Below are positions 31,160 through 32,116 of a DNA stretch of 38,889 nt, piece after piece. Both the position numbers and the translations under genes were made by a program. The stretch lies in the NCBI GenBank assembly GCA_009692425.1, contig SHZF01000042.1, positions 1-38,889 on the forward strand. Reading direction: 5' to 3'. The stretch comes from Myxococcales bacterium (GTDB taxonomy: Bacteria > Myxococcota_A > UBA9042). The notes beneath the pieces were generated by a model. That model was given only the letters and a program-made list of their open reading frames with translations. It was not told where the DNA came from and did no database searches. How positions within the stretch are numbered: position 1 is the first letter of the stretch; the number at the start of each line of letters is the position of its first letter.

Positions 31160-31195
31160 CCTGCGGCGGCCCGACTTGGGCAGGAGCCGTGCGTG

Positions 31196-32116
31196 ATGCC
31201 CCCTTCCCGAAACTCCCTGTCGCGAGATGAGATGCCCGCCTCACGCACAGCCCTCGCCGCGCTTGCCGCGCTCGCCGCCCTGGCGGGACTCGTGGGCTGC
31301 GAAGCGAAGCGCGCCAAGGTCGATGGCGACATGCTGGCGTGGTTGCAGTCGCAGCCCGACACGGGCGGCGCCGAAGCAACCCTGACCGCCGCAGCGCCCG
31401 CCGTGGTGACCAGCACGCAGGCCCCGGCAGTTGGCGGTGACGTGGTGACCGCGACCAACGACGTGGTGACCGCGACCAACGACGTGGTGACCGCGACCAA
31501 CGACGTGGTGACCGGCGGCAATGACCTCGCCGTAACCGACGCCGCCGAACTCGACTCCGCCGACGTCACCACCGTGCTCGACGCCGCCGACGCCAGCGCC
31601 CCGCTCGACGCCGCCGTTGCCGCCGCCGACGCGAGTTGTGCGAACTGTCCGGGCGCACCGGCACCGGTCTGGTCTCTTGTCGATTTCCAGCCCAAGTCCG
31701 CGGGGTTCAAGGCGAGCTACGGCCTCTCGAAGTTCGCCGGCAAGGTGACCGTGGTCGCGTTCCTGGCAAGTTGGTGAGGCTTCTGCGTTTCCCAGGCTGG
31801 GAAACTCGACAAGATGCAGAAGGAACTCAAGGCTGCCGGCATCGACGTCCCGTTCGTGGTGGTCAACGTGGTGTCGGGCACCGACAGTCAGGCGAACCTC
31901 ATCGACGTGTGTGACCTGCCGCTGCTGCAAGATACCGACGCGGTCAAGGCGTGGGACGTGCATGGCGCGGCGAAGGACGACGTCGCGATCTACACCGCCC
32001 AAGGCAAGCTCTGGCAGTGGTTCCCGTTCGGCGGGGTGTTCGACACGAACTTCGGTAACGATGCCAACTATTCCGCGTTCAAGGCAAAGGTTGTCGAAGC
32101 GACGCAGGCGAAGTAG
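31196..32116 (+). CDS. Thioredoxin-like lipoprotein with in-frame TGA: probable selenoprotein
   Basis: Read through the TGA at 31775-31777 the protein has 306 residues, with Sec at 194. The ATG at 31196 has AGGAG at 31182-31186; an ATG at 31232 is also possible. A lipobox (LVGC, Cys35) predicts a lipoprotein. A Thr/Asp/Val-rich linker with a DVVTATN repeat follows, then a CxxC (Cys148, Cys151), a beta strand lead-in (PVWSLVDFQPKSAGF; VTVVAFLASW), and U-G-F-C (Sec194, Cys197) at the exact place of the thioredoxin W-C-x-x-C. After the TGA the same frame continues with VSQAGKLDKMQKEL and a complete thioredoxin C-terminal half (FVVVNVVSG; VAIYTAQGKLWQWFPFGG) to a normal TAG. Sequence alone cannot exclude a nonsense change or sequencing error, but the hairpin at 31787-31805 argues for Sec. 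Selenocysteine genes (selA, selB, selC, selD) are not in the window. Confidence 0.85.
31439..31522 (+). repeat. 21-bp tandem repeat encoding DVVTATN
   Basis: Three identical 21-base copies (31439-31501) and a fourth with changes at its end (31502-31522, giving DVVTGGN) lie in the linker between the lipid anchor and the thioredoxin domain. Repeat number could change linker length. Confidence 0.9.
31787..31805 (+). promoter_or_regulatory. Predicted bacterial SECIS hairpin
   Basis: GTTTCCCAGGCTGGGAAAC begins 9 bases after the TGA codon. It forms a perfect 8-bp stem with a GGC apex, or a 7-bp stem with an AGGCU loop. In E. coli fdhF the SECIS apex also lies about 18-22 bases beyond the UGA and contains a G that SelB contacts. 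The coding role of the same bases (VSQAGK) is kept. Confidence 0.75.

Follow-up and report, generated by a model that had tools for sequence, protein, structure and literature searches.

The window analysed here, a 38,889-nt stretch of DNA from a Myxococcales bacterium, carries on its forward strand a gene whose reading frame passes through an internal TGA codon. Read with the standard genetic code, the gene falls into two pieces, one at 31193-31777 (194 amino acids) and one at 31814-32116 (100 amino acids), which is the splitting by gene callers that the original prediction had foreseen. The same prediction held that the TGA stands where a W-C-x-x-C site has its first Cys, in a frame that stays open on both sides. 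The translation of 31196-32116 into 306 residues bears this out, with codon 194 at the first Cys position in the context AFLASWUGFCVSQAGKL. The features of the locus are the following:

31196-32116, forward strand: selenoprotein gene, ATG to TAG (32114-32116), 306 amino acids with Sec at residue 194
31232-31300, forward strand: signal peptide and lipobox (MPASRTALAALAALAALAGLVG-C), by direct reading, with the putative lipid-anchor Cys35 at about 31298-31300
31439-31627, forward strand: acidic linker rich in Asp, Ala, Thr and Val, formed partly from tandem repeats of 21 nt (31439-31514) and 27 nt (31550-31627)
31640-32113, forward strand: predicted thioredoxin-fold, SelP_N-like domain of the ResA/TlpA type (AlphaFold2 pLDDT about 97)
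31775-31777, forward strand: TGA encoding Sec194, with which the UxxC site (WUGFC) begins, by direct reading and from TGA at the same codon in homologues
31784-31786, forward strand: codon of the putative resolving Cys197, second active-site residue of UxxC
31787-31805, forward strand: SECIS hairpin of 8 bp with a GGC loop, from covariation, a codon-redraw test and RNA folding

An alternative GTG start lies at 31193, and an AGGAG is found upstream of the gene at about 31182-31186. Read by eye from the translation, the lipobox LAGLVG-C (LVGC, residues 32-35) is that of a bacterial lipoprotein; a lipobox-like stretch was matched by a loose pattern in 51 of 69 homologue rows, the absences falling mostly in rows with a short or truncated sequence stretch. 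The homologues also have long acidic linkers, but of different sequence. In the window, the 21-nt repeat at 31439-31514 is a perfect tandem of 3.6 copies that encodes the linker unit VVTATND.

A six-frame search of 53 relatives returned homologues with exactly one in-frame TGA. At the codon of Sec194, TGA is present in 46 genes from 32 Myxococcota genomes, and Cys in 19 rows (17 distinct), so that the alignment proposed in the original prediction shows close homologues that mostly carry TGA, not Cys. All tested genomes with the TGA form possess a tRNA-Sec, except for two incomplete ones (G031 and G039) in which SelB is present over the cut-off. Five genomes with only the Cys form (G051, G090, G154, G189 and G240) are without tRNA-Sec; further genomes possess it and still use Cys. 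The family tree implies at least nine switches between Sec and Cys at the site, and since some relatives equipped with tRNA-Sec use Cys, the fold does not depend on Sec. When scanned with the single protein, named genomes gave no match; an alignment-based scan, whose Cys-only patterns could return Cys forms only, found Plesiocystis pacifica and a Myxococcales MAG. Several Sec paralogues per genome (L060, L061, L063, L062 and L064), with the motifs HGYUPTC and GWUTSC/GWUNSC, were also observed, and they show compensatory SECIS changes of their own.

The 8-bp hairpin with a G-containing apex that had been described 9 bases after the TGA was recovered at 31787-31805, where GTTTCCCA-GGC-TGGGAAAC forms a perfect 8-bp stem closed by a triloop and begins 9 nt past the TGA. 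With the peptide fixed and the codons redrawn from local usage, a Watson-Crick stem of at least 8 bp arose in 3 of 100,000 draws. The RNA folding suggested at the same time, run on 31775-31825, gave -19.2 kcal/mol (z = -2.4). The window contains a single occurrence of the motif TGA-N6-TGY-N6-CAGGY, against 0.07 expected, and an Rfam search of the window returned no match.

The hairpin is conserved by compensation. In a gap-free alignment of 44 TGA contexts, six of the eight stem pairs change on both sides, with 61 both-side changes in all; paired cells amount to 89.6%, compared with 68.5% after shuffling and 25-49% when the stem is slid, and covariation scores 0.498, compared with 0.106 for shuffled and at most 0.144 for slid alignments. 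Compensated stems in Sec genes include TTTCCCA/TGGGAAA, GCGCCCA/TGGGCGC, GCGCTCA/TGAGCGC, GCTTTCCA/TGGAAAGC and GTAGCCA/TGGCTAC. Stems of at least 5 bp closed by a G-first triloop occur at the SECIS place in 45 of the 46 Sec genes but in none of the 19 Cys rows; the lone exception among the Sec genes (L069) has a 6-bp stem and a 5-nt loop, and in two cases (L024 and L106) the hairpin is displaced by 8-9 nt with a similar loop. The close homologues are thus not the uniformly Cys-bearing, hairpin-free set that would speak against a selenoprotein, given that the Sec genes keep a compensated hairpin which the Cys genes lack. Of 37 Sec genes, 35 use GCT for the Ala encoded in the loop, although GCT makes up only 10 of 269 Ala codons locally; in the Cys rows, GCT is not among the commonest codons at this position. 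One Cys gene (L113, G256), whose genome has tRNA-Sec, retains a 9-bp hairpin where the SECIS would stand, perhaps left over from a former Sec site.

Searched with a covariance model of the hairpin element, the source genome gives a single match, the site itself (E 2.4e-11; next 0.55), and no second copy of the element. In relatives, besides the members of the family, the model retrieves one further selenoprotein, which is AhpC/TSA-like and has the motif HFGUIFC. This protein (L157, G027:C160:5967-6002) carries a SECIS of the same type.

The source genome (G000; 4.94 Mb, 96% complete) has the machinery for Sec insertion, and the search for selA, selB, selC and selD named in the original prediction located all four. 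SelA scores 457 bits, and SelB is full-length and over the cut-off, with its GTPase, SelB-wing_2 and SelB-wing_3 domains. Two tRNA-Sec genes exceed the cut-off, both with anticodon TCA (L001, G000:C68:6545-6637; L002, G000:C7:4466-4558). They are identical at 79 of 93 positions, all other tested genomes have at most one, and the second copy may come from contaminating contigs. There are also two SelD genes, both Cys forms; the second (L125, G000:C84:1-1983) has the Cys form CGGCGAK and is joined to an NAD(P)H-dehydrogenase-like FAD domain that precedes it. No formate dehydrogenase was detected over the cut-off in this genome, and none with a TGA.

That the TGA is a true stop, produced by mutation or sequencing error, and the downstream frame a remnant would account for the two fragments that the standard code does yield, but this has virtually no chance of being right and is ruled out by the conserved TGA and by a protein that is conserved before and after it, with the covarying hairpin and the Sec machinery pointing the same way and recurrence at one codon in 32 genomes excluding a sequencing error. 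It is also very improbable that a different amino acid is inserted at the TGA, be it by near-cognate read-through with Trp or Cys or under a reassigned code. Cys occupies the position in the Cys homologues, and Cys read-through would therefore yield an active protein; however, a place-bound hairpin with a conserved loop and the presence of sel genes fit Sec insertion specifically. Reassignment itself is ruled out, because TGA is also the stop codon of many of the family genes (L013-L038). The gene at 31196-32116 is hence a real selenoprotein gene, in which Sec insertion is indicated by conservation.

The domain behind the linker is predicted to be compact (AlphaFold2 pLDDT 97.3). Its nearest solved structures are DsbE of Chlorobium (VIA-align Z 19.0) and ResA (Z 17.3), and the predicted structure accordingly has the thioredoxin fold of the ResA/TlpA/DsbE type. 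In sequence, the best Pfam match is SelP_N (PF04592), which describes the N-terminal, Sec-bearing domain of the animal selenium carrier selenoprotein P, at 37.1-39.4 bits against a gathering cut-off of 23.2. In the window protein, this match is barely ahead of Redoxin (39.4 versus 38.1 bits); in four relatives, three from the same family and one from another part of the phylum, SelP_N reaches 48-58 bits versus 22-29 for Redoxin. SelP_N occurs in 41 of 379 genomes of the phylum. The NCBIfam model NF053656 (redoxin_TUGYCR) gives 81.2-82.9 bits, below its cut-off of 100, so that the window protein falls outside this family. The two are alike over the whole domain, but the motif differs, with WUGFC here and TUGYCR in what NF053656 describes as a "TUGYCR motif thioredoxin fold (seleno)protein". 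L065 (G029), a paralogue belonging to a different family within the same class, scores 209 bits with NF053656, above the cut-off. The window protein also misses the cut-offs of TIGR00385 (15.8 versus 123 bits), NF002854 (14.5 versus 170) and NF047696 (22.2 versus 230). The closest named domain of the Myxococcota family is Pfam SelP_N, and NCBIfam already models a neighbouring subfamily as NF053656. At a probability of about 0.9, the gene encodes a Sec-containing, exported, lipid-anchored thioredoxin-fold protein of this SelP_N-like Myxococcota family. The original prediction was right about the selenoprotein and missed the kinship with SelP_N, which is the main point.

It is somewhat unlikely that the protein is just an ordinary Sec variant of ResA/TlpA-type redoxins, matching SelP_N through the shared thioredoxin fold only. 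The structural match to ResA and DsbE and the nearly equal Redoxin score of the window protein fit such a view, as does the link between the SelP N domain and TlpA/ResA already made by Lobanov in 2008 (PMC2397514). ResA, TlpA and DsbE (CcmG) have the same fold, are membrane-anchored and bear the catalytic motif at a helix start, but they have Cys where the window protein has Sec, and identity is about 20%; the neighbours that were checked included no cytochrome-c maturation genes. Against this reading, SelP_N is matched by all 27 aligned core homologues at E 0.01 (best 8.2e-16), while 14 control genomes gave no match at E 1e-4. A further point against it is the alignment with a human SELENOP domain sequence, whose identity is confirmed by its 308 bits to SelP_N. 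This sequence aligns with the family over 112 columns (hhalign probability 99.1); the UxxC motifs coincide, and both sides have the KDDxxIYDxxGxL block.

The human SELENOP domain sequence is up to 34% identical to single bacterial members over 127 residues. The N domain of animal SELENOP likewise combines a thioredoxin fold, a single N-terminal UxxC in the same place and export of the protein, and it shares PxWxLxDxxP, VTVVALL, a QASKL-like helix and the KDDxxIYDxxGxL block. In contrast, the window protein is a bacterial lipoprotein with an acidic linker, about 30% identical to SELENOP and devoid of its Cys-rich, His-rich or Sec-rich C-terminal part, and the SECIS of the bacterial family is in-frame, whereas that of SELENOP lies in the 3'-UTR. 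Because it ends after the domain, with one Sec and no Sec-rich C-terminal part, the window protein is not SELENOP; the redox domain is what the two have in common. In a tree with this human domain sequence, SELENOP was first placed inside the bacterial Sec set (92/79), but holding it outside was not rejected (p-AU 0.515). No SELENOP chain appeared among the sequence matches in solved structures. That the animal domain was taken over, complete with its Sec, from the lineage to which the bacterial Sec lipoproteins belong, by a shared Sec-bearing ancestor or by transfer, is at present a rather doubtful proposal. If true, the UxxC redox domain of SELENOP would not be an animal invention.

SELENOP has been counted as unique to multicellular organisms (PMC7539508). 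An inventory from 2026 covers 119 families of prokaryotic selenoproteins; PF04592/SelP_N and NF053656 are both absent from its table, and the examples it gives as common to eukaryotes are SelD, GPX, deiodinase-like proteins, SELENOW-like proteins and MsrA, without SELENOP (PMC13188914). The inventory does contain members of the same superfamily with UxxC chemistry, namely Redoxin PF08534 UxxC, thiol-disulfide isomerase-like cd02966 UxxC and a UGC-containing TlpA (PMC13188914), from which the window family is set apart by the listed identifiers, not by representative sequences (e.g., HEU0032618.1). The family thus seems unlisted as a selenoprotein family, a judgment from the open-access literature alone, which cannot show newness to science. 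As exported selenoproteins and Sec-containing TlpA-like families are already known, describing an exported, lipid-anchored UxxC redoxin as unusual, as was done originally, was an overstatement.

The fold and the motif suggest that the protein is most likely an extracytoplasmic, lipid-anchored thiol/peroxide oxidoreductase of the ResA/TlpA fold. Judging from the machinery and from the conserved TGA and SECIS, SelB and Sec-tRNA would bind the hairpin, which starts 9 nt past the UGA, and insert Sec194. The signal peptide would carry the chain across the inner membrane, Cys35 would be lipidated, as the lipobox suggests, and the flexible acidic linker would keep the catalytic domain off the membrane. 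There, the selenolate of U-G-F-C may attack a disulfide or a hydroperoxide, and Cys197 would resolve the selenenylsulfide. Oxidoreductases of the ResA/TlpA type work in this way, and the same has been proposed for the selenoprotein P N domain. It is conceivable, at less than even odds, that the enzyme is mainly a lipid-hydroperoxide or peroxide reductase of the envelope, not a disulfide reductase. AhpC/TSA and Redoxin are among its Pfam matches, and SelP has been reported to reduce phospholipid hydroperoxides, according to a statement quoted in PMC2397514; yet a UxxC site on a ResA/TlpA fold is typical of disulfide oxidoreductases, and the peroxiredoxin motif PxxxTxxC is absent from the window protein.

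No conserved operon partners were found across the family, and in the window the selenoprotein gene is followed by a TauE/SafE gene on the opposite strand. Four relatives have, directly after the selenoprotein gene, a gene for a dihaem cytochrome c that also carries a rhodanese domain (L166:5842-6897, L171:5673-6971, L165 and L170), and this neighbour may hint at an electron route.

The Sec-containing lipoprotein described here represents a widespread selenoprotein of the Myxococcota that standard gene calling cuts in two. Its small, well-modelled domain lends itself to the study of SELENOP-type UxxC chemistry. With the same domain, Sec position and export found in a bacterial family, the origin of the SELENOP domain becomes testable by phylogeny and biochemistry.
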